IMG/VR virus record: IMGVR_UViG_3300001686_000031
Span: 1-22,404 of that record
Direction: 5' to 3' (one strand)
From: a virus
Length of the DNA: 22,404 bases
A model generated the notes under the pieces. That model saw only the letters and a program-made list of their open reading frames with translations, made no database searches and had not been told where the DNA came from. Shown here in pieces: positions 3,577 to 22,404 of the stretch (positions are counted from its first letter, which is position 1; each line of letters starts with the position of its first letter). Position numbers and translations under genes: made by a program.

Positions 3577-3881
3577 TAGTTGCCTGTCAGTGTGCGGACG
3601 GGAAGCCACGTACCGGGAGTGCCGGCTACGGTGCAGCGCCACCCGTGTACGAGGTATTTCGAGCCTGCCGTACCTAGTTCAGCCGGGGCCGAATTGAGGA
3701 TGAAGTCACCCACGGCATTCTGTCCTGCGGTGGGGATGGTCGCCTGAGCGTTGTAGTGCGCAGCGACGCGCCCTTCGGTGATCTGGTTAACCTGAGTGGC
3801 CGTCTGCCGGTACAGGTCGGAAAGGCGCAGGACGAGCTACTGAAGGTCGCCGGGTAGTGTGGGGTTCTGTTGCAGCTTCAT
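3576..3881 (-). CDS. Small structural-region protein, 101 aa, one in-frame TAG codon
   Basis: ATG 3879-3881 overlaps the TGA of the preceding gene (ATGA); the stop is TAA 3576-3578. TAG is codon 15 (3837-3839) in the stretch PGDLQ-TAG-LVLRLSDLYR. The N-terminal 40 residues look like a helix rich in Gln; the C-terminal half (KYLVHGWRCTVAGTPGTWLPVR) looks like a small beta domain of the kind found in phage head/tail accessory proteins. No family is recognised with confidence. It sits between a tail-type protein and a GNAT-like gene in a fully overlapping operon. Confidence 0.75.
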
Positions 3882-5332
3882 TCGGGCGTCGTCGGGAGGA
3901 TTTCGGGCGTGTAGCCGTTGATGACCATCGTCCCGGTCCACGACATTCGAACCCGATGCCAGCGGGCGTCGCGATGGAAGTCGAAGCGACCGTTGGTCTG
4001 GGCAATCGTCGTGTCCTGAACGGGCGATACGCCGAAGTCGTACCGGTAGTAGTTCGTCCCCGTCGCAGCGGTTGGGCTCGTCCTGTAGCGAGGCGTAACG
4101 CGACGCAGAAGGGAGTAGTTCGTCTCATCGCCAAGGTCGCCCGTAATGAGGTACGAGGCACCCGGTACGCCGGTCAGGCTGTAGAGCTTGTGGTCGGTAG
4201 CGATAACGCCTGGGACCGTGTTGTCGGCGATCCAGAACGGCGAGTCGTAGGCGATGTTGGGCAGGTTGTCGTAGGTGCTGTAGAGCGTGCCCAGACCGTC
4301 GTAGGTCACGTTACCCGACGAATACTGGATCACTGCCTCGATGGACCGGGCGAACTTTCCCCACTGGTTCGTGCGGATGTTGTAGACCACGCACAGGTCA
4401 CAGATACCGGTCGATGCCGTGCTAGGGAAATACCAGTACACCAGATCGCGAGTGAGGTCGGCACCGCCCTTGATATTCGACCGCTGCGAACCGTTGAGGT
4501 TGGTGAAGAACCACTCGCGGATGGGCGCACCGATGGACCGGGGAACCGTTCCGTCGTAGACGAAGAAGTCATTGGGGCCGACGAAGAAGTGGCTTGCGGC
4601 CACGACCACTACAGCCTCTTGACCGGAGCAACCGATCTCACCCGGAATGCGCTGCCACTGCCAGATAAGGGGTGGGCCAGCGTAGGTGCCGCGATACATG
4701 GATTTCTCCTTGTACGCGATCACATCGGGGCCGAACTCTCGACCTGCGGTGATGGGGCCCGGGGCGTCCACGAGGCGCCCGTTGGCTGCCTGAGAGCCGA
4801 TGGTGGGCGTCCACGCGGTCTGGTCGAACAGGTTGGAGCACCACCACCCGTCAGGCTGGTCACCGAAGCCGCCCGTAAGGTCGGATACGTTGAAGGCCAT
4901 GACGAAGTTGGAGGCTGAGCAGATGATGCCCGCAGCCGGCGACGTGGCGATGTCAGCGAACGAACCAGAAGGTGCGGCCTACTGGATTCGCTGAGCCCGG
5001 TTCACTGCCAGGATGTTGCTGCCGAACATGGTGAAACGCCAAGGAGCGAGTCCCGTGTACCCGCCCGCCTTGCTACGGTCGACCCACGCACCGCCTGCGA
5101 TGTCCCACAGCTTGGCCGTGGTGCCAGCCACGATGCGCTTGGTGCCGTCCAGCAGCGTCCCGACATAGGCACCCTTGCAGGCGCTATCCAGCGCGGCCAG
5201 ACCGGCATCCACAAGGCTATTGCCCGCTGCGAACCCCTTGGTCGTCGGGATGATGTTGTCGCAGTCGACGATAACGCCCGGAGTCTCGGGGTCCGTGTCA
5301 GGGCCAAAGCCGATGAAGGGAATGGCACTCAT
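3878..5332 (-). CDS. Structural (tail/stopper-type) protein, 484 aa, one in-frame TAG codon
   Basis: ATG 5330-5332 overlaps the upstream TGA (ATGA); the stop is TGA 3878-3880. TAG is codon 118 (4979-4981), in NRAQRIQ-TAG-AAPSGSFAD, joining two long open segments with no gap. The sequence is beta-rich with many aromatic residues (GTYAGPPLIWQW, DLVYWYFPS, NYYRYDFGVSP), consistent with a propeller or jelly-roll virion protein. The opening MSAIPFIGFGPDTDPETPG and 'VIVDCDNIIPTTKGF' are typical of podovirus tail or head-completion proteins of this size, but I cannot name the exact role. Under the standard code it is split into a 117 aa and a ~340 aa product. Confidence 0.85.
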
Positions 5333-6577: not shown

Positions 6578-7513
6578 TTACGTGAGGTCGCGCACAACCG
6601 CGTGGGCCAGATAGTTGTCCATCTGGAGGCCGTACTCCCAGGTGATCAGCATCTTCTCCGCGTCGCCCGTCTTCGCCAGTGGCTTGGCCTCGACGTTACG
6701 CAGCGTCTTGAAGCTGACGTGGTCGTAGTCGAGCAGATAGGCCGCTGCGTCGATGAAGCGATCCGGAACCACCTTCAGCGAACCGAAGTCGGTCACATAC
6801 ACGTCATACGCGGCGTGGAGCTTGTTGCTGTCGGCCTGTTCGAAGCGGGTGGCGTTGCCCGTGAAGCTGGACACGATCACCTTATCGGACGGACGGACGA
6901 GCAGCTGGGTCGGAGCGCCGCCAGCCGTGTAGGCCGTCTGCATCGCCGACTTGACCAGTGCCTCCGAGAGCGCACGAGCCGTACCGGCGACCGCAGCCGT
7001 GTTGGTGGACGGGATCGGGAAAGCGCCCGCACCAGCACCCACGGAACCCTGCGTGATCCACCCGGCAAGGCCGCGCGTCTGACGTGCAACGGTCGTGGAG
7101 CCGGCGTTGAACGTGCCGTTCTGGACCAGACCCGTCTCGGCGTCGCGCTTCAGCTCCTTGAGCTTCTTCGACTTCTGGTAGGCGATTTCCGACTTACGGC
7201 CCGCCTTGTCCACCACTTCCTCGGTATCGGAAATGATGAAGTTCTTGGTCGAGACCTGGCAGTAGTTGCCCCAGCGGGTGGACGGGGTGACGGCCGTGAA
7301 GCTGGCAACGTCGTCGCCTTCGAGCTGGGCGTTGTTGGCCGCAGCAGCGAGGGCTTCGGTCTGCCATTCGAAGAATCGGGCCGAAGCCTTGCCCTTTTTG
7401 AGCGCCGAGTAGAACGGGGTGTCCGTCGGCGAGATCATATCGATCACGTCCGACAGGTCTTCACGCTAGCCGATGGCGGCGTAGGTGGTAAAGGTATTGG
7501 CAACAATCGTCAC
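6578..7513 (-). CDS. Major capsid protein, DUF5309/SU10-type, 311 aa, TAG at codon 16
   Basis: The chosen start is GTG 7511-7513, preceded by GAGGA; the stop is TAA 6578-6580. The N-terminus reads MTIVANTFTTYAAIG-TAG-REDLSDVIDMISPTDTPF, the conserved opening of DUF5309-type (SU10-like) major capsid proteins, whose family consensus runs straight through the TAG position (commonly Asn or another polar residue). HK97-type features follow: helix-rich middle (RKSEIAYQKSKKLKELKRDAE), GTFNAGSTTVARQTRGLAGW, and a C-terminal half with KVIVSSFTGN and YVTDFGSLKVVPDRF. Starting at the later Met would delete the conserved N-terminus, so read-through of codon 16 (7466-7468) is strongly favoured. The capsid is therefore entirely dependent on amber decoding. 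Confidence 0.92.
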
Positions 7514-7526
7514 TTAGCTATCCTCG

Positions 7527-8543
7527 TTATTTAGAGCGGGCCAGCAGGTAGGCCGCTACATCATCGACGTTGCCGGTGCGCTTGGCGCGTTTGGCTAGGT
7601 CGTCGGCCCGTTTCTGTGCTGGCGTGTTTGTGGGGGTATTGGCATTGCCGGCCTGTACCGCCTTGGGCGGGGTTCTGGCCTGCACTACCTATTTCTGCTT
7701 AACTGCCTGTGCGCGATCCCACATAGCTGCCTTGTGGGCAATCAGGACGGCGCGATGGTCGATGAGATCCTTCAGTTCTTCGGGGCTGTAACCGTTCGAT
7801 ACGAGGAAGTCAGCCACTTCGCGTTGTGCTGCTGCTCGCTTCGTCTGGTCACGCCACTCAGGCAACTTCTCCAGTAGCAATTCCTCGTTCTCGCGGAAAG
7901 ATTCGGTGCGGGCTTTCTCCGCCTCGTTCTTCTTCATCTGCTCGATGGCCGAGTGGTGATGCTGGATTTCGTTGAGGCGTGCCGACTTGGACGCCATTTC
8001 CTGCTGTTTTGCGACCCATGCCGCTGGATCGCTCTGAGCTAGCTCGGCAAGTTTCGCTTGGTCCCCTACTAGCTCCTGATAGAGCACGCTACCCAGGACA
8101 TTGAGCTGGTTGATACGGTTTTCGTATTCCTGCTTAACAAACTGGCGTTCTTGCGTGATCTGCGAGGTTAGCTGTGCAGCTTCCTGCGTCTTGCGGGTGT
8201 AATCCTGTTGCCGCATGTAGCCCTTAAAGGCTTCATCGGCGGTAACTTCCAGTTCCTCACCCTGGACGGTGATTTTCTTGCTCTTGGTCAGCCATTCGTC
8301 TTCCTTGGCCTTGGCTGCGGCGGCTTCCTTTTCCTCCGGCGTGCTCCCGTCGTCGTCCTGCGCTTCAGGCTGCTCCTGTTCCGCGGCATCTTCAGCCTCG
8401 GCCTCGGGTTCGTCAGTCGTTGCAGCCGCTTCCTACTCGTCTTCGGGATACTTCGGCTCCAGCCGCTTAAGAATTTCGTCTTCCGTCATGCCCTGCGAAG
8501 GTTCAATGGCGGTGTTATCGACTTCCCCGGTGGGATTGGTCAT
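7527..8543 (-). CDS. Scaffolding protein, 338 aa, two in-frame TAG codons
   Basis: The start is ATG 8541-8543; the stop is TAA 7527-7529. TAG is codon 37 (8433-8435, YPEDE-TAG-EAAATTDEP) and codon 285 (7689-7691, QAVKQK-TAG-VVQARTPP). Layout is typical of podovirus scaffolds: an acidic, disordered N-terminus (DEPEAEAEDAAEQEQ), the recognisable GEELEVTADEAFKGYMRQQD-type motif near residues 95-115, a long charged coiled coil to residue 285, and a short basic tail ending in a helix (DDVAAYLLARSK). It lies just upstream of the major capsid gene, as expected. The protein would chaperone procapsid assembly and leave before DNA packaging. Confidence 0.88.
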
Positions 8544-8710: not shown

Positions 8711-9001
8711 TCAGAACGCTACAGAGCCCCGGCCAGTCGCTTGGGCCACACGCATCTTCAGGGTGGCCTCGGCCATCTTCCCCGACTCGATCAGCGACGA
8801 CAGGTGCGCTTGTACTCTCTCGGACGCCTTCAGCATCAGGTACAACTTTTCGCGGCCTTCCACGTCTCTTGCCGGGGACTTTGACCATCTTTCCTGTACC
8901 TCGTTAGCGAATGTGGCGAATGCTTCGGCCAGAAGGGGCTCGGCGAGAAGTTGAGCGGCCTTCTGTCCACGCTGAATCTCGGCTTCCATCAGGGCAGTCA
9001 T
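8711..9001 (-). CDS. Small protein downstream of portal, 96 aa
   Basis: ATG 8999-9001 overlaps the portal stop (ATGA); the stop is TGA 8711-8713. No TAG. The sequence is Ala/Glu/Lys-rich and helical (AAQLLAEPLLAEAFATFANE, GREKLYLMLKASERVQAHLS). A small helical protein between portal and scaffold is common in podovirus genomes, but its function is not established. A second Met four codons downstream could also serve. Confidence 0.7.
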   Translation of the reverse strand: MTALMEAEIQRGQKAAQLLAEPLLAEAFATFANEVQERWSKSPARDVEGREKLYLMLKASERVQAHLSSLIESGKMAEATLKMRVAQATGRGSVAF

Positions 9002-11205
9002 TCGCGGGCCTCTTGGTAGTCGGCGTCAGCATCGGCCGTGGACGGGTCTTTCGCGCCCATGGTCTTAGCGGACAGGATCTTAGCCTCGGCATTGATGCGT
9101 GCAATGCGCTCAGCGGAGGCTAGTTTCATCGCCTCGATGCGCTCTGCCGACTCCATGCTCATCTGTGCCTTCTGCATCGTCAGTTGGGCTTCTAGCTGGG
9201 CCTTCTCGCGGGCAACCTGTATCGCGCTCTCGGCCTGCATCTGGTTACGCTGGGCCTCAAGCTGGGTTTCCTGCTGCGACTGTTGCGCCTGGAACTCCTG
9301 TTTCATGCGCTCGACTTCTACATCACCCTGCTGCTTGGCCTGCTGGAGCTGGCCCTGCTGCTGCAACTCGGCCTGCTTGGCCTGCGAGTCGGCCTGAATC
9401 TTGAGGATGGCCGGATCGGGTTTGTCCTGCTGCTGTGGGCCTTCGCCGGGAGCAGTGAAGTACCGACCTACGTCCTTCTTACCCATCGCAGCCAGGAGGT
9501 CCTCAAGGCTGCTGTAGGCATTCTGTGGCTGCACGAGGCCATACTGCGCTGCCTGCTGCTGGATCTATAGCAGCATCATGGCGTTCTGGATCTGCTTGGC
9601 CTTGCTCGATGTGCCAATGCCGATAGATACGGACATCGAATAGTTGTTCTTCCACGCCCGGGGATCGACGGCCATCCAGTTGCCGTTGACCTTGATCTGG
9701 GCCTAGCGGTCCTGATATTGGGTCGCGTTCTTGAGCAGCAGGCGGTACACGCGGCTGATGAACGTCTCAGCGATCACGCGGGCGATCAGTTCAAGTCGCT
9801 GGTCTGCCTGGTCCTGAAGGGTTGCGACGCCCTCCGAGCCGATCTGCGACTTCGACAGTTCCTCGCCTACAAGCCCCTGCGAGAACTGCTTGATGCCGGT
9901 GCGGTTGTCTCGCACGCTATCGAAGTAACTGATGCCAGCCTGAGCGTTCGGGCCGATATCCGTCGTGGTCAGTTCGCGAACGGCGTCCGGGTTATCGGCA
10001 CGGATGATGCCGCCCGGGCGCGGATTCAGCAGGTCGTCGAGGTTAACCTGACCAGCCACCACGATCTTCTGCGGGTTGTTCGCCAGGTACAGGTTGTCGA
10101 GGTACTGACGGGTCACGGCGGTCTTGATCCGCTGAATGTCCTCCGTCAGATCCCACATGCTCAGGCCAATGAGCTTGTACGGCATGAGGTTGGGGCAGCA
10201 CAGGGCAAACTCGTGGTCGTCAACGATCTCGTTTTCGAAGATGACCGTGCCGGCCTTGACGATACGTCGATATTCGGCAATGCCATCACCGTCCGCGTCC
10301 ACCCGGATGTACACGAGCTGGAGGGTTACGACGCGCTGGCTAGGATCCGGGGAATCGTCATCTTCGGAAACCGTGAAGCTGCCATCGTAGGATTCACGTT
10401 CCATGCGCTCGCCGTACGTGTCGCCCTCGTCGTCACCCGTGGGGATCTCGGCAACCTTATCCGCGTCGTAGCCCATCGAAAGCAGGTCGGAAACGGTGCG
10501 CTCGGTGTTCTAGCCCACGCAGCGAAGCTTCTCGATGTCGCGGCTGTCCTTGCTGAACCAGACTTCCTCGGGCGGCACGCCCTCAACCACGATGTTGTGC
10601 TGCTTGGTCTTGCGCTTGGCCGTGACGTTGAACGTCGGCTGAGGCGGAGTGCCATCAGGTCCCGGCATGGCCTGAGCGGGAACCTGCTCGACGATCTCCA
10701 CGTTCTGGTCAACGGCAAGCGCCTGGACATCCTGATCCGACAGGTACTCGTAGTGTTCCTCGCGCTCGTCCCACGCTTCCTCGCAGTAGACCTTGACCAC
10801 ACCCATACGGGAGATCAGGGCCGACTTGATGGCGTCGTGAAGGACCGTGAAGCCCTGGTTCTTGCGGAACAACATCCAACCACAGTATTCCGTGGCGTCG
10901 TTGGCGCTCTTCTCGTCCTCGGGGCCTTCCGCCTCAAAGCGGATCACGTCGTCGGCACCGCAGAACATGCGCATGAGCGAAGGCATGGCGGACTCGACGA
11001 CTTCCAGCAGATCCTTGCTGACAACCTTGGACCGGCCATCTACGTCAGGCGGCGTCAACTCGTGCGTCGCCTCGCCCAGGTAGTACGCCATAGCCCGCGT
11101 ACGGTCAGACGACAGCTAGTCCGCGTAGCCGATGCCGTTCGCCCGCTCGTGGTCGATGAGGGCGCACAACTCGCCGTCCGTCATCTTCTTGGATTTCTCT
11201 GCCAT
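8998..11205 (-). CDS. Portal protein, P22-like, 735 aa, four in-frame TAG codons
   Basis: ATG 11203-11205 overlaps the terminase stop (TAATG); the stop is TGA 8998-9000. TAG codons are 30 (11116-11118), 232 (10510-10512), 501 (9703-9705) and 547 (9565-9567). Portal signatures include RAMAYYLGEATHELTPPDV, GRSKVVSKDLLEVVESAMPS, FRKNQGFTVLHDAIKSALIS, a clip/stem region around 330-470 and IGLSMWDLTEDIQRIKTAVTRQYLD. The last ~190 residues are very Gln-rich coiled coil (barrel-type tail), and codon 547 sits in AMMLL-TAG-IQQQAAQYG, where Gln is the obvious reading. The protein forms the dodecameric channel for DNA packaging. With the standard code it appears as four fragments. Confidence 0.9.
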
Positions 11206-12458
11206 TAAGCGGTCGCCAGTGTCTTGTAAGTCAGTTTGCCGCCCCAGTCCTCGTTAGAGAGCTTCGGGGCGACGACGTGTAGGTAGCGGAACGCATCGGC
11301 ACCGTGGCTGAACTGATCGTGCAGTGGAGCGCCAGGCTCGCCCGTGGATAGTGGCAGCGCACGCCTGTAACGCTTCAGGCACTCGACCAGAGGGCCGGCC
11401 TTGGTCTTGTCGAAGTAGACCTGTCCGAACTGCCTACGGGCCAGCCTGATGCCTTCCTCGATGCCGAGCCGTGGAACGATCTACACCTTCCATCCCAGTT
11501 CCTGCATGATCTCCTGCGATGACTTGCCGGTCTTGAAGTCCCGGTTCTCACCATCGTGCGGGAGCCAGATCGTGCCCCAGTTGTGCTTGCGGGTCTTCAG
11601 TTCCGTCGAGTACCAGTCCAGCGTCTTGTGGTTGCCTTCCACGTACTCGATCACACGGAGCTGACTGAGGTGCTTCTGGACCAGAATGAGCGTCATCTGG
11701 TCGTTCCAGCCAAGGTCGAACACTACATGGACCTTCAGGGCCGGATCGTATGGCACGTCGCAGATGCGGCTAGGCGTGGCTTCCTTGGCACTGGCTATCT
11801 CGTCGGCGTAGATCGCGCCAGAGACGGCAGGCAGACACACGCCCTCCCATGTGTGGTCGTACTCGGCCTTGGTCAGCATTTCCTTGTCGCGAAGCCGCTC
11901 GGCCTCAAGGATGCCGTTAAACCATGGGTTGTCCGAGTAGTTCATCTTCACAACGAACGAGTCTTCGGGAGCGTTCTCCACGAAGCGTACGTACGTCGGA
12001 TCGGTGTCCAGCTCCGGGTTGAACGTGATCCAGACTTCGGACCCGTCCTTTCGGATGGTCGGGATCAGGATCTTCCAACTCCGCTCCGTGATCGCCTGCG
12101 CTTCCTCGCACCACACGATGTCCACGCCCTCGTAGGACTTCACGGACTCGGCGGTCTGGTCACTCAGGCCAGAGAAGGTGATCTCCGTGCCATTCAGGCC
12201 CTTGATGACCGTTGCCTGCACCTCGTAGAACGCGCCTAGGCCCATGGAGGCTATCTGGTCGCCCAGGAGCTTGTGTACGGAGTCCTTGATGGACTTCTGG
12301 ATCTCTCGGGTGCAGAGGATGCGCAACGGCCTCTCAGCGCCCTACAGGAGCAATGCGCGGGCGTAACCCCAAGACTTGCCGGAGCCTCGCCCGCCGTATG
12401 CCACCTTGTAGCGTGCCGGCGTGAAAAGTCCCTCAAGCTTGTCAGGGAACTCGATCAT
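11205..12458 (-). CDS. terL: Terminase large subunit, 417 aa, two in-frame TAG codons
   Basis: The start is ATG 12456-12458 with AAGG upstream, overlapping TerS by 17 bases; the stop is TAA 11205-11207. Walker A is GGRGSGKS at residues 22-29 and Walker B is VDIVWCEE at 112-119; the nuclease domain begins near FDLGWND (about 247-253). TAG is codon 39 (12342-12344, ARALLL-TAG-GAERPLRIL) and codon 326 (11481-11483, GWKV-TAG-IVPRLGIEEGI). Both lie inside conserved parts, the first between Walker A and the CTREIQKSIKDSV motif of PBSX-type terminases, so termination there would destroy the motor. Function: ATP-driven packaging and DNA cleavage. Confidence 0.94.
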
Positions 12459-12711
12459 GCTCAGCCTTGACGAACGAGATAGTCAGACCAGTCATCAGCG
12501 GGTTGTCAGGATCACCCGTCACCTGAGTGGGAAGAACCTTGCCAAGCAGCGTCATGAAGGCGCTTGGCGATGCTTCAGCCTGCGCCACAAGGTAAGCGAC
12601 ACCGCCCTTCCGATCCAGCGCCTACAGGATCATCTCCTTAAGCGTCGCAGTGGTCTTGTTGGGGGAGCCCTTCTGGCGCCCGCCAGTTTTAGGTTTCCCC
12701 TTGCCAGCCAT
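12442..12711 (-). CDS. Terminase small-subunit-like protein, 89 aa, one in-frame TAG codon
   Basis: The start is ATG 12709-12711 with GAGG seven bases upstream; the stop is TGA 12442-12444. It opens MAGKGKPKTGGRQKGSPNKT, a basic DNA-binding-type head (TGRxKGSxNKTT) common in small proteins encoded before terL, then TATLKEMIL-TAG-ALDRKGGVAYL, with TAG as codon 30 (12622-12624), and AFMTLLGKVLPTQVTGDP, also typical. Its place directly upstream of and overlapping terL supports a role as DNA-recognition subunit. The stretch downstream of the TAG carries conserved residues, so read-through is required. Confidence 0.82.
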
Positions 12712-12844: not shown

Positions 12845-13258
12845 TCAGGGACTTGTCTCATCACCCGGCCACCAATCGTAGCTAACCTCGCGCTTGCTCA
12901 CTGGATCCCAGTAGATCACCGAGATCTTGCCCTATCCTTCGCCGTCTTTCCGGTCCGTGCTGGACGAGGCAGCGGCTTTCGCCACAGGTTCGTGTGACGG
13001 TTCACTAGCATTTCCATGTGTTACCTCGTGTGTGGCGGGGGCGGTCCGATTCGAACGGACATCCGAGAACTTTAGAGATTCTGGCTCTACCGTTGAGCTA
13101 CGCCCCACTAAACCCTCAAGCCGCAAGCTATCCACGTAGTTCTTCTCGCGGACACTTGCGTAGTAATCCTTCTTAGCCGCAAACACTCGATCCCAGTTAT
13201 CCGAGAACGTCTGCTCATCCACACTCAGCGGACGACGGTCATCGCCCTTGCCGCTCAT
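12845..13258 (-). CDS. Hypothetical protein, 137 aa; ORF contains the suppressor tRNA gene and a TAG
   Basis: ATG 13256-13258 overlaps the previous TGA (ATGA). Residues 1-50 (MSGKGDDRRPLSVDEQTFSD, then NWDRVFAAKKDYYASVREKN) look like a real phage protein. Residues ~51-76 are the translation of the tRNA gene at 13033-13107, and the frame stays open beyond it. Codon 109 is TAG (12932-12934); after it comes a Trp-rich tail (GKISVIYWDPVSKREVSYDW, then WPGDETSP) and TGA at 12845-12847. The tail looks protein-like, which favours read-through, but the tRNA section may be a chance open frame, and two shorter genes flanking the tRNA are an alternative. Confidence 0.55.
13033..13107 (-). tRNA. Amber suppressor tRNA, anticodon CUA, glutamine-type
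   Basis: A complete 75-nt cloverleaf with encoded CCA. Acceptor TGGGGCG/CGCCCCC pairs at 2-71 to 7-66, with U1 opposite C72; D stem GCTC/GAGC with loop AACGGTA; anticodon stem AGAAT/GTTCT with loop CTCTAAA, so anticodon CUA (13073-13075); variable loop CGGAT; T stem GTCCG/CGGAC with loop TTCGAAT. Discriminator is G73. U1, an open 1-72 pair, G2-C71, G3-C70, G10 and G73 are known identity elements for bacterial GlnRS, and U35 is shared with natural tRNA-Gln. It should therefore be charged with Gln and read UAG. It lies inside an open frame between lysis and packaging genes. Confidence 0.93.
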
Positions 13259-14161: not shown

Positions 14162-14249
14162 CGCCAGGGCCGAAGTACATGCGGATGGTGATTACGCCTG
14201 CGGCTACGATCAGTCCTAGGGTTATCCAGTTACTGATGGTCTGTGCCAT
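14154..14249 (-). CDS. Single-pass membrane micropeptide, 31 aa
   Basis: ATG 14247-14249 lies inside the end of the protease gene; the stop is TGA 14154-14156. The peptide (MAQTISNWITLGLIVAAGVI then TIRMYFGPGDD) is one hydrophobic helix with a short acidic tail. Position among lysis genes suggests a lysis accessory or a second holin/antiholin, but this is inference. No TAG. The overlapping arrangement on both sides and the clean membrane profile support it as a real gene despite its length. Confidence 0.6.
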   Translation of the reverse strand: MAQTISNWITLGLIVAAGVITIRMYFGPGDD

Positions 14250-14853
14250 AGCCAACCTCTCGGTACTGCTCGGCGGTGAACTTGAATGGGATCGAGCCCA
14301 TGAGCTTGAACTGGGTGTCGTTGTAGTTGATGACTACCGCGTAGCTCGTCACCCCAACGACCTGACCGGACAGGTTGAAAATGCCCGAACCGCTATCCCC
14401 ATAGAAGCCGTTCAGGTCGTAGATCGTCGTAACAACCCCTTCTTTCTCGTCGTATCCGGCCACATGGCCTTCGCGGTAGAGGAAGTTTAGGAACGCCGGC
14501 TGGCCCCAGAGGAAGATGAAATCGCCAGGCTTAGGCGACTCCCCCAACTTGGCCCACGAGGTGAACGTGGTATCTACGACCAGCATCGTGTGGTCGTTGC
14601 CGTCCTCGATCTACTGCTAGACCTTGACATCCTTGCCGTTGACCGTGAGCGCCTTCATCCCTACGAAGCAATGTGTCGCCGACAGGATCAGGTGTGGGCC
14701 AATGGCCGTACCGCTACACACCCCGTTTCCGTCCATTTCCAACCGGAGTGCTACTGCTCGACTTCGACTGAGCAGATCGTCTCGCGGTGAATGCGTCGCG
14801 CACCCTACCGCAGCCAGGACAAGGACGAGGTAGAACGCGATACGCATTTTCAT
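14230..14853 (-). CDS. Trypsin-like serine protease lipoprotein, 207 aa, two in-frame TAG codons
   Basis: The start is ATG 14851-14853 with GAGG six bases upstream; the stop is TAA 14230-14232. A lipoprotein signal (MKMRIAFYLVLVLAAVGC, Cys18) precedes a chymotrypsin-fold domain: GTAIGPHLILSATHCF with His61, NDHTMLV with probable Asp87, and GDSGSG with Ser154. TAG occupies codons 79 (14617-14619) and 81 (14611-14613) around a CAG, reading KDVKV-Q-Q-Q-IEDGNDHT. The TAG pair falls between His and Asp of the triad, so termination gives an inactive stub. A membrane-anchored protease in a lysis cassette is unusual; it could act on envelope proteins during lysis or on incoming phages/defence factors. 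Target unknown. Confidence 0.87.
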
Positions 14854-16280: not shown

Positions 16281-17102
16281 TTAGGCCACGCGCGCCAAGG
16301 AGAACCGACTCTCTGCATTCTTGTACTGGCGCTTCAGGTACGAGGCCAACGAGCGGCTTTCGTACTTCCGACATAGGTAGTCGAGGCTAAGGGCCATCTC
16401 GCTGAACGTACCGTCGCGAACCTCGTTCAACACCACGATGCCGCGCCAATGCGAGTTCGCCATACCCTTGTAGGGCTCGTCGTGGAGGTAGCAGCTACCA
16501 GCCACGACACCATGCCGCATCTGTCCTGTGGCGTACTGCACAGAGCCCTGCTGGAGCCCCTGGCAATGCCCGTTAATGAAGCTCGTGCCTACCTTGGACA
16601 ACCGATTGGCGATGGTTCCGCTGATCGGCTTACCTGTATTCGGATTCGAGAAATAGTGGGCGTAGGTAATCCCATCAATCTGGACGACGCCAGGAGAGCC
16701 GTTGAAGTACGGCACGACCTCCCAGCCCTTGTCGTTCAGGAGGTGGAGACCGATCAGCCCCTCAAGGACCGGATTGGCTTCGATATAGCGAACCAGCCTG
16801 TTCTCGTGGTTTCCGCGAAGTCGAACCATGCGCTTAGGGCGGAACGAGCCCATGCCCTCAAGGAGAATGGCCTCACCAGCGTTAGCCGCCTCGATGTCAG
16901 CGAGAAGCCTCTGGCCTTCCTTATCCTTGCTACCAAGGGCGCTATGCGTGGACATACTCGGGAAGTCGGCATTATCACCGATGTCCACGACCACATCAGG
17001 GGCGTAGTCACGGATAGCCATGCCAACCCATCGGTTGTAGTCCAGCGGCACGCCCGGCTTGATCTGACGGTCAGGAATCACGAGGTGGCGACGCGGTTTC
17101 AT
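16281..17102 (-). CDS. Calcineurin-like metallophosphoesterase, 273 aa
   Basis: The chosen start is ATG 17100-17102, which overlaps the HNH gene stop (ATGA) and has GGGAG eight bases upstream; an in-frame ATG five codons earlier is possible but less well placed. The stop is TAA 16281-16283. Motifs in order: HLVIPDRQ (Asp11, Gln13 replacing the usual His), VVDIGDNADF (Asp43), RLRGNHENR (97-100 GNHE), YAHYFS and INGHCQG. These are the metal-binding motifs of the family, with Gln in the first and last motifs as in many phage members. Substrate could be nucleic acid or a phosphoester; not determined. No TAG. Confidence 0.88.
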   Translation of the reverse strand: MKPRRHLVIPDRQIKPGVPLDYNRWVGMAIRDYAPDVVVDIGDNADFPSMSTHSALGSKDKEGQRLLADIEAANAGEAILLEGMGSFRPKRMVRLRGNHENRLVRYIEANPVLEGLIGLHLLNDKGWEVVPYFNGSPGVVQIDGITYAHYFSNPNTGKPISGTIANRLSKVGTSFINGHCQGLQQGSVQYATGQMRHGVVAGSCYLHDEPYKGMANSHWRGIVVLNEVRDGTFSEMALSLDYLCRKYESRSLASYLKRQYKNAESRFSLARVA

Positions 17103-17581
17103 GCGGCAAGCTCCCATGTGTATCCCTTGCAGGTCCGGCGCTCACCGTGAATGCATTTGCTGACATTGGCCTGCGTGAAGCCAGCCTTGCCAGCTTCGGC
17201 CTGAGAAATGAACTCGATGACCTTGCCAGTCAGGACGTGAGTCCCACGAACCGGCGTTTCGGGGTTGGCATGCAATCCTGTACGCAGCGAATGCATGATG
17301 TTTGCGCCCCGCGTGCACCACTCCAGATTGCTGGCGTGGTTATTCATCTTGTTTCCATCGATGTGGTTGACATCGAGGGAATCGCCATCTCCGATCCATG
17401 CCAGTGCTACAGCACGGTGAACGGTGATCGGCGTGCGCCCCACCTTCGTCGTCATGTAGCCGTTGCTGTTAATCCACTGCGATGTCACGCGAAGCTTGCG
17501 ACGGGCCGAGACCACGACGCCGTCTTCACTGACATAACCGTCCGGAATGCCCGGAATCGGCCGGAACTCAGACAAGTCCAT
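17099..17581 (-). CDS. NUMOD4/HNH endonuclease, free-standing homing type, 160 aa
   Basis: The start is ATG 17579-17581 with a strong GGAGGA six bases upstream; the stop is TGA 17099-17101. N-terminal FRPIPGIPDGYVSEDGVVVS is a NUMOD4-like DNA-binding motif; an HNH_3 core follows (VHRAVALAWIG, LDVNHIDGNKMNNHASNLEW, with catalytic His in NHIDGN); the C-terminus (ISQAEAGKAGFTQANVSKCI) is a NUMOD1-like helix-turn-helix. It nicks or cuts DNA for its own spread. It sits between two metabolic genes, overlapping both ends by a few bases, as mobile HNH genes in phage operons often do. No TAG. Confidence 0.92.
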   Translation of the reverse strand: MDLSEFRPIPGIPDGYVSEDGVVVSARRKLRVTSQWINSNGYMTTKVGRTPITVHRAVALAWIGDGDSLDVNHIDGNKMNNHASNLEWCTRGANIMHSLRTGLHANPETPVRGTHVLTGKVIEFISQAEAGKAGFTQANVSKCIHGERRTCKGYTWELAA

Positions 17582-17583
17582 GC

Positions 17584-18063
17584 TCAGTCCTCCGGGTCCG
17601 CCAGCGGCATGGCATAGCCAGCGCTCGGCGTGTGATCGTGCTCGGCCTTAACCAGCTCGTGCAGCATCCCATCAACGTTGAACTTGAGGGCGCAGAGGTT
17701 TTCCTTCAGCCCTGCCGGAGTCGAAACCCCACGGTGCTCGGACCAGACATCGAAGAAGTGACGCCACATGGACTTCATGTAGGCGTCGAGAGGGATCCCC
17801 CGCTGCCAATTATCTGAGTCGCGGACCTGACCGTCAGCCTGATGGCGATGCCGGTCCATGTACTCGCCGAACGCCTTTAGGGCATACGGGCTGAGGAAGC
17901 CGTCGAAGTCGATCTTGCCGGCATCCGTGTCACGGGTAGCTCCGGTGTCGAACTTACGAACGCCTGCACCAACCCAGTCCTGCGGAGTGGCAAAGGTTCC
18001 CAACGGATGACCGTGCTTATCGGACGGTATCACTACACCCGGATTAATCGTCCCACGAATCAT
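17584..18063 (-). CDS. DUF5664-family protein, 159 aa
   Basis: The start is ATG 18061-18063 with GGGGG upstream; the stop is TGA 17584-17586. The family signature is clear: GVRKFDTGATRDTDAGKIDF, DGFLSPYALKAFGEYMDRHR, then DSDNWQRGIPLDAYMKSMWR and HFFDVWSEHRG. These are the conserved blocks of the DUF5664 family, which databases label as the N-terminal part of dATP/dGTP diphosphohydrolases; I cannot confirm the enzymatic activity. A nucleotide-pool role would suit an early/middle phage gene. It is the first gene after the large non-coding interval. Confidence 0.85.
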   Translation of the reverse strand: MIRGTINPGVVIPSDKHGHPLGTFATPQDWVGAGVRKFDTGATRDTDAGKIDFDGFLSPYALKAFGEYMDRHRHQADGQVRDSDNWQRGIPLDAYMKSMWRHFFDVWSEHRGVSTPAGLKENLCALKFNVDGMLHELVKAEHDHTPSAGYAMPLADPED

Positions 18064-18112
18064 ATTGCCCCCGAAGGCATTGAATTAGTTTGCTGGTTGA
18101 GCCATCCAGCGA

Positions 18113-18259
18113 TCACTCGGCCCGCCGACCTAGACCCCCTTTCGCCTGAACTGCCATCAGGTAGCAGCGATCCCCACGGCAGTGGTCACGCTCGACTAGG
18201 GCGCCGGTGCGATGAATCGGGCATCGCGGGCTGTACGCCACAACCGGCAAAAATGTCAC
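18113..18259 (-). CDS. Possible small Cys/His-rich protein, 48 aa
   Basis: A GTG at 18257-18259, directly after an in-frame TAA, opens a frame ending in TGA 18113-18115: MTFLPVVAYSPRCPIHRTGA then LVERDHCRGDRCYLMAVQAK. Three Cys and two His (CPIH...HCRGDRC) could form a small zinc knuckle, and composition looks protein-like. A CGGAG lies about 11 bases upstream of the start, far for a ribosome site. Without a homology search it remains tentative. Confidence 0.4.
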   Translation of the reverse strand: MTFLPVVAYSPRCPIHRTGALVERDHCRGDRCYLMAVQAKGGLGRRAE

Positions 18260-18358
18260 TTAAGTGCGCGCTCCGGCCCGAAACCGGTGGAATAACGCCA
18301 CTTGTGTAAGTCGGGATTTGCACCCGAAGCCACCGACCGAGACCGGATGGGCTGAAAC

Positions 18359-18437
18359 TGGAGCGGGCCAGGAGAATCGAACTCCGCGTTCTTCGGCTTG
18401 GAAGGCCGTTGCGCGCCCTTTACGCTTGTTAACCCGC
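18359..18437 (-). tRNA. tRNA-Gly (anticodon UCC) with abnormal D arm
   Basis: The acceptor stem GCGGGTT/GGCCCGC (two G-U pairs), anticodon arm ACGGC-CTTCCAA-GCCGA, T arm with loop TTCGATT and the end TCCA match bacterial tRNA-Gly. Anticodon is UCC (18400-18402), reading GGA/GGG. The section where the D arm should be (AACAAGCGTAAAGGGCGCGC, then A) has no normal 4-bp D stem; at best a GCG/CGC 3-bp stem with GG in the loop. Position 8 is A, not the nearly universal U, and the top pair of the anticodon stem (A-A) is open. It may be a divergent functional phage tRNA or a decaying copy. Confidence 0.62.
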
Positions 18438-18699
18438 AATCTTGATATTCCGCTCAAGAATCAGCCGTTTCGCTGGAATCTTGAGGTATATGTCAGGTCA
18501 CGGTTACCGAATCCGTGTCGTCCCGCCAGACGAGGCCCCTGCCTTGCGCAGGTAATCCCGGCCTCTTTCTGGCTGTGCGGCGACTACCGTTCGATGAACG
18601 GGCCCGCAGAGGCTTAGCCGGGAATCTCAGGCGTGTAATCCGCCCTCGTGACTGAGTAGATCACGGCATTTCGGATTGCCGCAGTCAGGTGGTGTTTAT
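18438..18699. other. Non-coding interval with inverted repeats
   Basis: No convincing gene is found in these 262 bases on either strand. A 15-bp perfect palindrome, CCGTTC-GAT-GAACGG (18587-18601), and a hairpin CCTGC-GCAAG-GCAGG (minus strand, near 18543-18557) are present. The plus-strand frame crossing this area is antisense to the tRNA and is not credited. The interval follows a homing endonuclease gene and may hold regulatory sites or remnants of a lost tRNA cluster. Confidence 0.45.
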
Positions 18700-19203
18700 T
18701 TAATGCCGAAGTGGAGCGAACTCACCAAAGAACCTATTCCTTGCCGCGACGTATGCCTCGTGAGCCTCTTGCTCGGAAGCGAATGATCCAAGGTGCGTCT
18801 GCTTACCCATCACCTTTATCTTCGCGTGCCAGGTCGATGGGGACTTCCCCGGATAAGCTCCAATAAGTGAAGATTCCCGTCGACCATGAATGGTTAGGTT
18901 TTGCTGGTTTTGCCGCATGTCCGCCAGCCTGAGGTTGACTAGCCTGTTGTTGCTCTTGTCTCCATCGATATGGTCAATCTGGAATCCTTCGGGGTCGCCT
19001 ACGCGCATCATCCAGGCCAATCGATGCGCGTAGTAGTTTTTCCCGCCGAATCCAATTACGACATAACCCAGGGCTCGGTTTAGATGGCCCGCCACCCTTC
19101 CGGGACCGGAGCTACCCATCTTCACTCTCCACACAAACTGGCCTGAATCATCGTTGTAGTCGAGGACGAGAAGGGCCTTATCCCTCACTTCTTCGTAATT
19201 CAT
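18700..19203 (-). CDS. HNH endonuclease with AP2 DNA-binding domain, 167 aa
   Basis: ATG 19201-19203 overlaps the previous TGA (ATGA); the stop is TAA 18700-18702. The HNH_3 core lies at about residues 58-100 (YAHRLAWMMRVGDPEGFQID, HIDGDKSNNRLVNLR, QNQQN), followed by an AP2/ERF-like domain (SLIGAYPGKSPSTWHAKIKV to LGSFASEQEAHEAYVAARNR). This HNH-AP2 fusion is a common phage homing endonuclease. It is the second HNH gene in 2 kb but unrelated in domain layout to the other. The non-coding interval begins directly after it. No TAG. Confidence 0.92.
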   Translation of the reverse strand: MNYEEVRDKALLVLDYNDDSGQFVWRVKMGSSGPGRVAGHLNRALGYVVIGFGGKNYYAHRLAWMMRVGDPEGFQIDHIDGDKSNNRLVNLRLADMRQNQQNLTIHGRRESSLIGAYPGKSPSTWHAKIKVMGKQTHLGSFASEQEAHEAYVAARNRFFGEFAPLRH

Positions 19204-19688
19204 GCAACAAGCCTCGATTCTCTGACGACCGTGTAGTGCTGGTGATGAAGCTCGGCCCGGTAGTTCCGGAAGCCGATGACCATCTGTGCGGCCACCTCCC
19301 CCCGGATGCGCTTGTACTTCGTGTGCCAGACGTTCAGACGCTTGGCGGTGATGTATGCGGGCTCGGTGTATTTCCCTGCGATGACGAATTCCAGGGCGTC
19401 GATGCCTGCCTGTGATACCCAGTCGCCACGCCCCCTAGGAGCCACCACAGCCTGCCCGTTAGTCTTCCGGGTACGTGTGTGCTGCCTAGCCATGCCGATG
19501 GCCCACGCGGCTAGCTGACGGTCGTACACGGTGTCGCCACGGACTACCCGGCTATACAACTGCCAGCCGGGGTAATGGGCATCAAACAACTTCGCCGTCC
19601 GGTTGGCCGCGTCGATACACGCATCGGAAAGTTCCGGCATGGCAAACGCCTCGTCCGTGTCGCGGCCTAGGATGTCGTGGGTGGTCAT
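19200..19688 (-). CDS. Hypothetical protein, 162 aa (possible late regulator)
   Basis: ATG 19686-19688 overlaps the previous TGA (ATGA); the stop is TGA 19200-19202. The C-terminal half is basic (ITAKRLNVWHTKYKRIRGEV, then GFRNYRAELHHQHY) with a helix-turn-helix-like GIDALEFVIAGKYTEPAYIT segment. Small basic proteins at the end of a nin-type gene block can be antiterminators, and the late genes lie downstream, but no specific family motif is recognised and no zinc-finger is present. Function is open. Confidence 0.8.
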   Translation of the reverse strand: MTTHDILGRDTDEAFAMPELSDACIDAANRTAKLFDAHYPGWQLYSRVVRGDTVYDRQLAAWAIGMARQHTRTRKTNGQAVVAPRGRGDWVSQAGIDALEFVIAGKYTEPAYITAKRLNVWHTKYKRIRGEVAAQMVIGFRNYRAELHHQHYTVVRESRLVA

Positions 19689-19972
19689 GCCGCTTCCTCG
19701 GTAGGTGACGGGGAAAGTGACTGAATAACGGCCATAGCTACTGCCTTTCGGCCATCGCCATATTTGAAGAACCGCTCAACCTCGTCCTGAAGTACTCCAT
19801 CAAGCGTTGCCTTTGCCTGCCGCGTGATGATCGCAAGGAGGTTTTCTGGTGTGCAGTACTCGTCTACCGCCGCCTTTACGTACTCGTCCATCTGAAGCTG
19901 GTACTGGGTCATGGCCGTGCAGATGGCGTGCTTCATGCCTTCCACCTCCATCCGAATGATGGGCATAGTCAT
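19685..19972 (-). CDS. Hypothetical helical protein, 95 aa
   Basis: ATG 19970-19972 is chosen (TGATG overlap); a GTG one codon upstream is also possible, and a strong GGAGG lies before an internal Met (MKHAIC), so two forms may exist. The stop is TGA 19685-19687. The sequence (MEVEGMKHAICTAMTQYQLQ, then MDEYVKAAVDEYC) is helical and acidic. I have the impression of similar proteins in other phages but cannot name a family. No TAG. Confidence 0.78.
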   Translation of the reverse strand: MTMPIIRMEVEGMKHAICTAMTQYQLQMDEYVKAAVDEYCTPENLLAIITRQAKATLDGVLQDEVERFFKYGDGRKAVAMAVIQSLSPSPTEEAA

Positions 19973-20370
19973 CACGCCGCCTCCTTCATCTTCGTGTAGT
20001 TAACCGCCGTCTGTAGCTGGGCCCATGCCCAGTCAGGCGATATGCCGAGAAGTTCCAGAATGTTCCGCTCGTTACCTCCAGGGAGTTCGATCACCCCACG
20101 GACGGCGAGGTCACCAGCGGGAATGTCCGCGTTGACGTACTTGCCACCACTCAGGCCGAAGCCGAAGTAGTCATAGACGGCCCGCGAGTAGATGGCCCAC
20201 AAGAATTCATGCTCACGAGTCCGCCAGTCAGACGAAAGGTGAGGCGACGGACGCACGGTGATGACGCCATGGTTTTCATGGCTGTCGGATTTCCGCTCGT
20301 GTGCCGGCGACGCCGAGGCGATGTGGTACAGGGAGATCCGGAGTGTCTTGCTTAGATGCTGGCTGTTCAT
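19972..20370 (-). CDS. Hypothetical protein, 132 aa
   Basis: ATG 20368-20370 overlaps the previous TGA; the stop is TGA 19972-19974. The N-terminal 45 residues are Ser/His-rich and low in structure; the remainder (REHEFLWAIYSRAVYDYFGF, GLSGGKYVNADIPAGDLAVR) looks folded. No membrane segment, TAG or known motif. The true start might be internal, but no better ribosome site is seen. Confidence 0.72.
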   Translation of the reverse strand: MNSQHLSKTLRISLYHIASASPAHERKSDSHENHGVITVRPSPHLSSDWRTREHEFLWAIYSRAVYDYFGFGLSGGKYVNADIPAGDLAVRGVIELPGGNERNILELLGISPDWAWAQLQTAVNYTKMKEAA

Positions 20371-20702
20371 GACAAATCCACGATTTTCTGCGAGTAATGG
20401 AGACGGTTGGAAACCTTCTTGTGCTTCCAGCCGTGGATGTGAACGAGCCAGCCAGCCTTACGGCAAGCCGCTAGGTAGTCAGCGTGCACGTCGTCGGTAA
20501 TCTTCTTCAGTCGGGCCGACACGTTCGTCCATGAGGTCGTCTGGACCAGTAACGTCTCGGTTCCACGGAGGGCGATCACGTCGCCAAAGCCCCACAAGTC
20601 TTTCCGGATGTTGGCCCCAGGTATCCAGCGCTCTACGACTTCGGCAAGCCAGCCATCGGTGCGCAGGAAGGCGAGCGTCAATTCGGTCGGGGACTTAGCC
20701 AT
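20367..20702 (-). CDS. Putative PD-(D/E)XK nuclease-like protein, 111 aa
   Basis: The start is taken as ATG 20700-20702 (TAATG overlap); a longer frame upstream only duplicates sequence of the neighbouring gene. The stop is TGA 20367-20369. The order helix-GFGDVIAL-strand-TLLVQTT-helix (ADYLAACRKAGWLVHIHGWK) resembles the D...(E/Q)xK core of small phage resolvase/VRR-type nucleases, with Asp in GFGD and Gln in place of Glu; a Lys is missing at the usual place (TT instead of xK), so activity is uncertain. A recombination-type role would fit the neighbouring NinB-like and YbcO-like genes. Confidence 0.7.
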   Translation of the reverse strand: MAKSPTELTLAFLRTDGWLAEVVERWIPGANIRKDLWGFGDVIALRGTETLLVQTTSWTNVSARLKKITDDVHADYLAACRKAGWLVHIHGWKHKKVSNRLHYSQKIVDLS

Positions 20703-20968
20703 TACACCGTCTCCCGAAGATGCTCTGGTGCCCAGATGCACTCGGACCACTCGATCTTGTCGTTCGCGTCGGTGGCTGGCTCAAGCTCCCAAGGCCAGAA
20801 ACAGAACCCATCGTCACCACCGATGGTTACCCCGACATTCCCCGGCTCGTCGTCCATGTTCGTGCAGTCAAGTTCGTTTACAAATCCCTCCGAACCGATA
20901 ACGTGCGCCCATGAAAGATCGTCACAAGCGACTACTCTTACGCGTTGGCCCACAAAGAACTTAGCCAT
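20702..20968 (-). CDS. Hypothetical SH3/KOW-like small protein, 88 aa
   Basis: ATG 20966-20968 overlaps the previous TGA (TGATG); the stop is TAA 20702-20704. The opening MAKFFVGQRVRVVACDDLSW with later GSEGFVNEL and a Trp/Phe-rich FCFWPWELEP is the pattern of a small SH3-like barrel. Acidic overall. No TAG. Function unknown. Confidence 0.78.
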   Translation of the reverse strand: MAKFFVGQRVRVVACDDLSWAHVIGSEGFVNELDCTNMDDEPGNVGVTIGGDDGFCFWPWELEPATDANDKIEWSECIWAPEHLRETV

Positions 20969-21201
20969 CAGTGCATCCTCAGCTCTTCACCGGCCCATCC
21001 CATCGCGCGCTGACCAATGAGTCGGCTGTAGGCTTCCTGCGCGTCCTGAAGCCTCACGCGAAGGTCTACGTTGTCGGAGGCCATGCCGAAGTAGCGTTCC
21101 TCAAAATCCTCTGCACGTTCACGGTGAAACCGAACGCGGAACGACGAGTAAGCCAAAGTACCTGCCGCTACGAGGGCGGCGATGATCAGCACGATTACCA
21201 T
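20968..21201 (-). CDS. Single-pass membrane protein with coiled tail, 77 aa
   Basis: ATG 21199-21201 with GAGG nine bases upstream; the stop is TGA 20968-20970. An N-terminal helix (VIVLIIAALVAAGTLAYSSF) is followed by a charged, coiled-coil-like part (RVRFHRERAEDFEERYFGMA, then LQDAQEAYSRLIGQ). Likely an inner-membrane protein with a cytoplasmic tail. It lies among recombination genes, far from the lysis region, and its function is unknown. Confidence 0.78.
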   Translation of the reverse strand: MVIVLIIAALVAAGTLAYSSFRVRFHRERAEDFEERYFGMASDNVDLRVRLQDAQEAYSRLIGQRAMGWAGEELRMH

Positions 21202-21485
21202 TTGATAAGGCCCTCATTGATTAACTGCAGTTGAGTACGGAAGACGCCATCAAGGAACCATCGCTTAGCGTCTTCAGGGGAAAGGAGTTGCGTGCGACGG
21301 TCCCCCTCGCCGTGGCACCGGTCGCAGACCCATGCGCCCATGATGTCCGGGGCTTTCTGACCCATCCCAGTGATGCCAGCCATGCGGATGTGCCCGAGAA
21401 CCACCGTCTCTGTGTCGAACGAGCAGATGCCTGGGTAGCGGACCATGCACTCACGACCCCTGGCGGCTTTGCGGAGGTCGGCCAT
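21195..21485 (-). CDS. DUF1364/YbcO-like metal-binding nuclease candidate, 96 aa
   Basis: The start is ATG 21483-21485, where the family's N-terminus (MADLRKAARGRECMVRYPGI) begins; a longer frame upstream would replace the micropeptide gene and is rejected. The stop is TAA 21195-21197. Cys13, Cys21, His32, Cys54, Cys57 and His58 (CDRCHGEGDRRT) form the expected zinc/HNH-like site of DUF1364 proteins such as E. coli YbcO. These are encoded in the nin-like regions of lambdoid phages next to NinB, as here. Probable nuclease in recombination. Confidence 0.87.
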   Translation of the reverse strand: MADLRKAARGRECMVRYPGICSFDTETVVLGHIRMAGITGMGQKAPDIMGAWVCDRCHGEGDRRTQLLSPEDAKRWFLDGVFRTQLQLINEGLIKW

Positions 21486-21486
21486 A

Positions 21487-21579
21487 TCAGTCGCGCACCA
21501 GTTCGTTGAGGCAGAAGAAAGCGCAGGCCCACCCGTATTGCCCGACAAGCACCAGCACAATGGCAATCCACTTAAGCAT
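21487..21579 (-). CDS. Membrane micropeptide, 30 aa
   Basis: ATG 21577-21579 overlaps the NinB-like stop (TGATG) and the frame ends in TGA 21487-21489, just before the next ATG. The peptide MLKWIAIVLVLVGQYGWACA then FFCLNELVRD is a single hydrophobic helix with aromatic and Cys residues. It exactly fills the gap between two recognised genes, with coupled start and stop, which is the main support. Confidence 0.62.
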   Translation of the reverse strand: MLKWIAIVLVLVGQYGWACAFFCLNELVRD

Positions 21580-21977
21580 CACGTCACCTCGTTGGGATCG
21601 CAGACGTAGATCCCGATCTCGGCCATGCGGCGCTGGATCTCGGCTACGTAGTTGAGAAATTCGACCTTGCTCATGCGGGAACTACGGCGGACCGGACGCA
21701 GGCGCTTACGTCCGAAGCCTTCGACTGTCTCCCATCCGTAGATTTCGCCGAGGAAATATTCGTGCAGGTCTTCGGGGCTCCATCCGTCGAGCTGACCGCT
21801 TGCCAGAATGTCGGGGTATGCACTTCCCCAGAGGAACCGGTTCTGTGCGCTGCTACGGGTGTCGGCGTACTCCTTCACCTCGACCTTGACCCGCTTGCCT
21901 GGCAACGCTGCCAGCAAAACGGCAGCTAGGCGGCTGATATCCGACTCCCTGTCGGTTGCTGGCAGGACGGCGATCAC
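21579..21977 (-). CDS. ninB: NinB-like recombination protein, 132 aa
   Basis: GTG 21975-21977 overlaps the previous TGA (GTGA); the stop is TGA 21579-21581. The NinB pattern is present: VKVEVKEYADTRSSAQNRFL followed by WSPEDLHEYFLGEIYGWETV and RRSSRMSKVEFLNYVAEIQR. The RSxxQNRFLW segment is the best match. Lambda NinB (Orf) binds single-stranded DNA/SSB and acts as a recombination mediator replacing RecFOR. Neighbour DUF1364 supports a recombination module. No TAG. Confidence 0.87.
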   Translation of the reverse strand: MIAVLPATDRESDISRLAAVLLAALPGKRVKVEVKEYADTRSSAQNRFLWGSAYPDILASGQLDGWSPEDLHEYFLGEIYGWETVEGFGRKRLRPVRRSSRMSKVEFLNYVAEIQRRMAEIGIYVCDPNEVT

Positions 21978-22180
21978 TTGCTTACGGAGTACGTCACGGA
22001 GTGAACTCGGGCGATCCGCTCGCCATGCTCATGGCTGGCAAACTCACGAGCCATTTCACGGGTGTTGGCAAAAGTGATGACGCTGCCGTCGTAGGCGTCA
22101 ACGACACACCATCCCGGCACGTCTTTGCCAACGGCGTCCACGTACGTCCCGGTGCGGATGTGGTTGCTGTGCTGGTTCAT
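21974..22180 (-). CDS. Hypothetical protein, 68 aa
   Basis: ATG 22178-22180 overlaps the previous TGA (ATGA); the stop is TGA 21974-21976. Sequence MNQHSNHIRTGTYVDAVGKD then VPGWCVVDAYDGSVITFANT reads as a small beta domain followed by a helix (REMAREFASHEHGERIARVH). No known family, TAG or membrane segment. Confidence 0.75.
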   Translation of the reverse strand: MNQHSNHIRTGTYVDAVGKDVPGWCVVDAYDGSVITFANTREMAREFASHEHGERIARVHSVTYSVSK

Positions 22181-22404
22181 TTGAATTTCCTCGTGTTCTG
22201 TCTGAAGGATTGCCAGTAGTCGTGCATCTGAACTAGTCGGTCGCCGTCCAGGCTGTTGGATTGGTCCGGTCGCTTCCCGATGGATCGTCCGTTTTCTTCT
22301 GCGTAGATCAGCTTTGGATCGAACTCGATCAGTAGTTCTTTCATTTCGGCGGCGAAGGTGAAAATCGCTCTGAGTTCCGTCGCCTTCCGTTCCCGCTCGT
22401 CGAT
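22177..22404 (-). CDS. Partial hypothetical protein (C-terminal 75 aa)
   Basis: The frame is open from the window edge to TGA 22177-22179, which overlaps the next start. The visible part (IDERERKATELRAIFTFAAE, MKELLIEFDPKLIYAEENGR, later MHDYWQSFRQNTRKFK) is charged and helical. No TAG is present. Its start and full size are outside the window; family not recognised. Confidence 0.7.
   Translation of the reverse strand: MDERERKATELRAIFTFAAEMKELLIEFDPKLIYAEENGRSIGKRPDQSNSLDGDRLVQMHDYWQSFRQNTRKFK

Follow-up and report, generated by a model that had tools for sequence, protein, structure and literature searches.

The locus described here raises the question of which amino acid a phage tRNA with the anticodon CUA delivers to UAG codons, and which enzyme may charge it. 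The window, by which we mean the whole analyzed stretch of 22,404 nucleotides, is a 22.4 kb IMG/VR virus record with a GC content of 59% and with genes on the minus strand. ARAGORN detected a single tRNA in it, an amber suppressor located exactly at positions 13033-13107 of the minus strand with the anticodon CTA. The gene comprises 75 nt including the DNA-encoded CCA, and Rfam RF00005 matched it with 53.2 bits (E=4.5e-9). Near-identical copies were present in two relatives, L003 and L039. The acceptor stem is UGGGGCG/CGCCCCC, in which U1•C72 is unpaired and is followed by G2-C71, G3-C70, G4-C69, G5-C68, C6-G67 and G7-C66; further elements are G10, U35, A37, G73 and the anticodon loop CUCUAAA. 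The preliminary description of this DNA had placed here a CUA tRNA with U1•C72, G2-C71, G3-C70, G10 and G73. Every base that it named was right, and the ARAGORN cloverleaf was intact, in agreement with the Rfam score. The name 'tRNA-Pyl' was printed by ARAGORN because the program applies it to any CUA anticodon. A pyrrolysine tRNA has a 6-bp anticodon stem, a 1-nt connector between acceptor and D and a 3-nt variable loop; we rejected this assignment, since the window tRNA has a 5-bp anticodon stem, a 2-nt connector and a 5-nt variable loop. Sections of a study of gut phages describe HDV-like ribozymes adjoining suppressor tRNAs (PMC10879173). We searched for such a ribozyme next to the window tRNA and obtained no Rfam match within the window; the theta subgroup possibly lies outside the Rfam models.

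The gene layout on the minus strand comprises an SU10-type portal, scaffold and capsid, a terminase and other virion genes, followed by a lysis-type region and, after it, early-type genes. The window contains both the PF17236 capsid and the PF23899 portal that define SU10-like podoviruses, and it shares with them the order portal-scaffold-capsid. It differs from them in being recoded, and its portal is at most 38% identical to annotated phage records among the matches listed. The phage is a small, soil-type, SU10-like podovirus; the window itself is a fragment, the related SU10-like podoviruses in this study being approximately 40 kb long. All genes named below lie on the minus strand. The portal gene (8998-11205; SU10_portal, PF23899, E=1.7e-189) is read through four TAGs (11116, 10510, 9703 and 9565), the large terminase gene (11205-12458; PF04466) through two (12342 and 11481), and the head scaffolding gene (7527-8543; PHROG 3927) also through two. 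The major capsid gene lies at 6578-7513 (SU10_MCP, PF17236, E=1.8e-88). Further TAGs were found in a probable small terminase gene, named from its position (12442-12711; TAG at 12622), in a virion structural gene (3878-5332; PHROG 3287; TAG at 4979) and in a protease-like gene (14230-14853; PHROG 9683; TAGs at 14617 and 14611). The early-type genes (16281-22402), which encode a metallophosphoesterase, HNH nucleases and small ORFs, have neither in-frame nor terminal TAGs. A tRNA-Sec-like match at 18362-18438 of the minus strand scored 24.8 bits against a cut-off of 47 bits and is probably due to chance.

Two relatives were found integrated in Dyella-family genomes (Gammaproteobacteria) among 234 genomes of the family searched; the others had none. 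One of them, in Dyella sp. SG609, is a prophage whose end carries an integrase. The other, G136, is more distant and likewise recoded, with 32 TAGs in matching late genes of another genome of the family. The window phage therefore probably infects Dyella-family Gammaproteobacteria as well, judging from these relatives. The SG609 genome encodes GlnRS (690 bits) together with tRNA-Gln(CUG) and tRNA-Gln(UUG), both of which have U1-A72 and G73. The bodies of both are dissimilar to that of the window tRNA, and comparison with the tRNAs of the Dyella genome revealed no close host parent.

We counted 25 in-frame TAGs in 4825 codons of the late genes of the window and none in 1843 codons of the early genes, and none of the genes tallied has TAG as its terminator. 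In the late genes compared, tRNA-bearing contigs had from 4 to 45 in-frame TAGs each, while the relatives that span the tRNA locus and have no tRNA had 0 (L010), 1 (L016) and 0 (L025). These counts agree with the proposal that this tRNA decodes the TAG codons. L225 and L017 have TAGs, and a suppressor was not found in these fragments; a weak tRNA-like match in L225 has, by eye, a TTG anticodon and was rejected as a suppressor. The TAGs could instead be true stops, resulting from programmed truncation, errors or decaying genes, with the tRNA as a passenger. In favor of such a reading, the window is no more than a fragment, and decay is conceivable for the Dyella relative, which is a prophage. 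We find it hardly credible: when TAG is read as sense, the portal, capsid and terminase domains become whole, TAGs occupy matching codons in independent assemblies in place of Gln, the early genes have no TAG, and the relatives without the tRNA are nearly free of them.

Further, we compared the suppressor tRNAs of the recoded relatives. Briefly, ARAGORN detected the suppressor in most of them; for L015/L040 and L021 we used a covariance search and inspection, and for G136 a pattern search. All 14 distinct tRNAs of the clade, which are few, share a single locus and are for these reasons not fully independent, have a mismatch at 1•72 (U•C, A•C, C•C or C•U), G2-C71 and G73. The bodies that carry this acceptor end differ strongly and are of at least six kinds: the window type, a Gln-like type (L002, L004, L005 and L007), types with a long variable arm (L011/L013/L020 and L030/L198), types with a reduced D-arm (L015, L021 and G136), and those of L224 and L226. 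G10 and G3-C70 are not universal in the clade, as L030 has C10 and C3-G70. The window and L004 are 97% identical in the flanks on both sides of the gene, while their tRNA bodies are 54% identical; L004 and L002 have an identical tRNA, while their flanks are 84% and 53% identical. The tRNA has therefore been exchanged as a unit, with one end conserved.

We considered the possibility that the Dyella prophage has TAGs and no suppressor, and rejected it, as the tRNA is present though missed by ARAGORN. It has a reduced D-arm and scores 23 bits with the tRNA covariance model, which is below the family cut-off; CUA, U1•C72 and G73 were recognized by inspection. The suppressor of L021 was likewise missed by ARAGORN and recovered by the tRNA covariance model and inspection. 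Suppressors with reduced D-arms, which ARAGORN misses at default settings, lie at 4083-4153 in L015/L040, at 2934-3005 in L021 and in the L289/L290 region (G136), and those of L015 and L021 have odd T-loops. In two contigs a second tRNA lies 3 nt downstream of the suppressor, tRNA-Gln(UUG) at 8108-8182 in L030 and tRNA-Asn(GUU) at 2113-2187 of the minus strand in L198, the bodies being otherwise similar. Weak tRNA-like genes with, by eye, a UCC anticodon were seen in L025 (1572-1638), which has one even without a suppressor, and in L003 and L004 (loci L101 and L102).

The identity set of bacterial tRNA-Gln comprises G73, U1-A72, G2-C71, G3-C70, G10, U34, U35, G36, A37 and U38 (PMC9976931). The window tRNA shares U1, G2-C71, G3-C70, G10, U35, A37 and G73 with bacterial tRNA-Gln, and it differs by C72 instead of A72 opposite U1, by A36 instead of G36, which is dictated by the CUA anticodon, and by A38 instead of U38. 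The bases listed in the preliminary description as Gln identity elements are thus all present. They are not specific for Gln, however, as G73, G2-C71 and G3-C70 also belong to the Trp set, along with G4-C69, G5-C68, C34 and A36 (PMC9976931).

The amino acid was approached from the residues that stand opposite the TAGs. For this purpose, relatives were collected via capsid and portal, and the residue opposite every TAG was read. In the relatives, the residue aligned with a TAG of the window (31 codons) is Q 173 times, followed by E (28), with Ser 12, Tyr 11 and Trp 0. When only standard-code relatives were used, the share of Q in TAG columns was 42% for the window tRNA type, 35% for the Gln-like type, 31% for the long-arm type, and 35% and 46% for the reduced D-arm types, the range of 31-46% being that of the tRNA-type groups having most sites. 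CAG columns gave 31% Q against standard-code relatives, with A and E next, as for TAG columns. This agrees with the earlier prediction of Gln, and the sense of TAG as Gln in the window phage is well supported by these alignments. As the Q profile is the same across tRNA types, Gln seems to be the meaning of TAG whichever of them a phage carries; we rejected separate amino acids per tRNA type because every large group yields Q. The features that define code 15, namely an intact CUA tRNA gene, TAGs in late genes that are spared elsewhere, and TAG columns that correspond to Gln, were all found in the window.

It is improbable, given these columns, that another synthetase with overlapping identity charges the tRNAs, so that TAG would mean Trp, Ser or a mixture. 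The seven elements of the Trp set named above all occur in the window tRNA and would suit TrpRS; SerRS, in turn, might recognize the tRNAs of L011, L013, L030 and L198, which combine a long variable arm with G73. The Trp set also requires A1-U72 and C35, though (PMC9976931), Trp is never found opposite the window TAGs, Q comes first in each group with enough sites, and in the long-arm group its share equals that of CAG columns while Ser reaches 7%. Charging with Trp or Ser was rejected on the residues in the TAG columns, not from the tRNA alone.

GlnRS of the host is then the most likely charging enzyme, and the acceptor end may be what makes this possible. We scanned viral contigs with a tRNA pattern in which positions 1, 72 and 73 were free; the following counts refer to the matches listed, at most 120 stretches. 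Among 61 distinct CUA tRNAs, 12 had a mismatch at 1•72, and all 12 had G73; two of these (L133 and L198) are members of the present clade. CUA tRNAs without G73 were never mismatched there (0/30; Fisher p=1.3e-4), and phage tRNAs with G73 and another anticodon seldom were (10/167; p=6e-6). Among the phage CUA tRNAs listed, the comparison thus placed the mismatch solely in those with G73. The preliminary description had also stated that this end would open more readily than that of the host tRNA, which accords with U1-A72 in both tRNA-Gln of Dyella, the host suggested by the relatives. Mutants of su+3 tRNA-Tyr at positions 1, 72 and 73 are charged with Gln. Selection for active amber suppressors from tRNA-Asn in E. 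coli gave tRNAs with a weakened 1-72 pair throughout, every one of which inserted Gln, and an amber tRNA-Ser acquired Gln identity via changes at 1-72 and 3-70 (PMC9976931). A weaker first pair, with an acceptor end suited to GlnRS, turns such non-Gln bodies with CUA into Gln acceptors, as may also hold for the tRNAs described here; the E. coli tRNAs are laboratory mutants, whereas the window clade is natural and has several bodies. The open first pair would accordingly offset the missing G36 and let GlnRS charge the phage tRNA, and the shared frayed end fits a natural solution for capturing the host glutamine enzyme.

The mismatch may also be unrelated to GlnRS: it could be neutral decay, or it could help in 3' processing, in escape from host nucleases or in another step. 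We think this unlikely. Some phage tRNAs do have first-pair mismatches anyway (19 of 657 with anticodons other than CUA), yet in the clade the mismatch is universal across very different bodies, unrelated phage CUA tRNAs among the matches listed show it only together with G73, the Gln discriminator, and the Gln-inserting suppressors selected in E. coli carry the same change (PMC9976931).

The capsid gene has a TAG at codon 16 (7466-7468, minus strand) that recurs in nearly all recoded relatives. It was present in 14 of the 14 suppressor- or TAG-bearing contigs of the main comparison, although four-fold sites are only 37-46% identical to those of the more distant of these contigs; the next most shared of 163 TAG columns reached 9/13. 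Standard-code relatives have CAG or ATG at this codon. Further scanning added L225, L226 and L227, so that TAG at codon 16 is found in the window, L002-L007, L011-L013, L015, L020, L021, L023 and L225-L227. The exceptions carry an early capsid TAG elsewhere (codon 35 in L224, codon 63 in L017 and codon 9 in G136), and the capsid TAG of recoded relatives always falls within the first 63 codons. This pattern, to which shared descent contributes, may reflect selection for delaying capsid synthesis to the time when the suppressor is at work.

The whole tRNA also lies in frame inside an ORF of 137 aa (12845-13258, minus strand; TAG read as Q), an architecture shared with L002-L007, L030, L198 and L224. 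The ORF consists of an N-part, MSGKGDDRRPLSVDEQTFSDNWDRVF..., the tRNA as a peptide, and a C-part, ...GEG#GKISVIYWDPVSKREVSYDWWPGDE, which contains a TAG just downstream of the tRNA (12932-12934, minus strand). A TAG near the same place occurs in L002, L003, L004, L005, L007, L030, L039, L198 and L224, and is missing in L021, L226 and the G136 relative. In the standard-code relatives L008, L025 and L014 the N-part (MSGKGDDRRP...DNWDRVF) is a short stand-alone protein; in recoded relatives it extends through the tRNA, and many reach the C-part (INADTGE#VTEDWWP). In L005, L226, L030 and L198 the C-part starts directly after the tRNA CCA, with no start codon in between, and can therefore be translated only via the tRNA sequence. 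The frame stays open across two tRNAs in L030 (7888-8253) and L198. The base rate of an open frame in a single tRNA is approximately 0.5 per given frame; the recurrent in-frame nesting is therefore suggestive and not proof. More speculatively, and as a reading that we consider less likely than not, translation may extend to the gene of the suppressor tRNA itself, and the ORF and the capsid TAGs may form a self-reporting amber lock on the late genes of a phage that is temperate and whose tRNA body can be exchanged. Excision of the tRNA would destroy the ORF message, so translation would compete with tRNA maturation, and the TAG in the C-part would restrict the full nested-ORF protein to times when suppression works.

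Taking the evidence together, we consider it very likely that UAG is read as Gln by a suppressor serving the late genes, with host GlnRS as the most likely enzyme, an open end that would compensate, and an end that is kept while the body is replaceable. We assume that UAG is a stop codon for the host. The phage tRNA would have to be made, cut from its transcript and charged, and only then would full-length portal, terminase, scaffold and capsid appear. In charging, the anticodon would supply U35 without G36, for which G73, G2-C71 and the non-forming U1•C72 would compensate; since this first pair cannot form, the 3' end may open without cost. The acceptor end would be the part held by selection, and the remainder of the tRNA could be replaced and swapped among relatives.

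Recoding of TAG to Gln by a phage tRNA is already known. Code-15 phages, as presented in parts of PMC9523058, PMC11210395 and PMC10879173, include gut phages of the crAss-like, Lak and other groups that carry a Sup-CUA tRNA, and for two crAss-like ones mass spectrometry showed Gln at TAG. The phages in these parts resemble that of the window in their CUA phage tRNA, in structural and lysis genes where TAG stands for Gln, and in a standard-code host, presumed in the case of the window. Most of them come from the gut and infect Bacteroidota or Firmicutes, and many have large genomes, whereas the window clade consists of approximately 40 kb SU10-like podoviruses with a GC content of 59% in the window and with relatives integrated in Dyella-family Gammaproteobacteria. 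Neither an unpaired 1-72 position nor the exchange of tRNA bodies nor in-frame nesting of a tRNA within an ORF is mentioned in the same parts of these papers. What appears to be new is the open acceptor end conserved on exchangeable bodies, the capsid TAGs, the in-frame nesting, and the fact that these are small podoviruses whose relatives occur in Gammaproteobacteria.

In summary, these results extend stop-codon recoding to small phages with relatives in Gammaproteobacteria that possess a direct GlnRS route, and charging in such hosts is open to standard biochemistry. TAG-using phages reported without a suppressor may carry tRNAs with a reduced D-arm. A direct test of whether recoding is linked to late-gene control, as proposed, is offered by the nested ORF and the capsid TAGs. 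The clade amounts to a natural repeated experiment on what suffices for Gln identity without G36, with varied bodies and a common acceptor end. Should an unpaired 1-72 position together with G73 prove predictive of Gln, it would provide a simple sequence rule for the residue inserted by phage CUA tRNAs.
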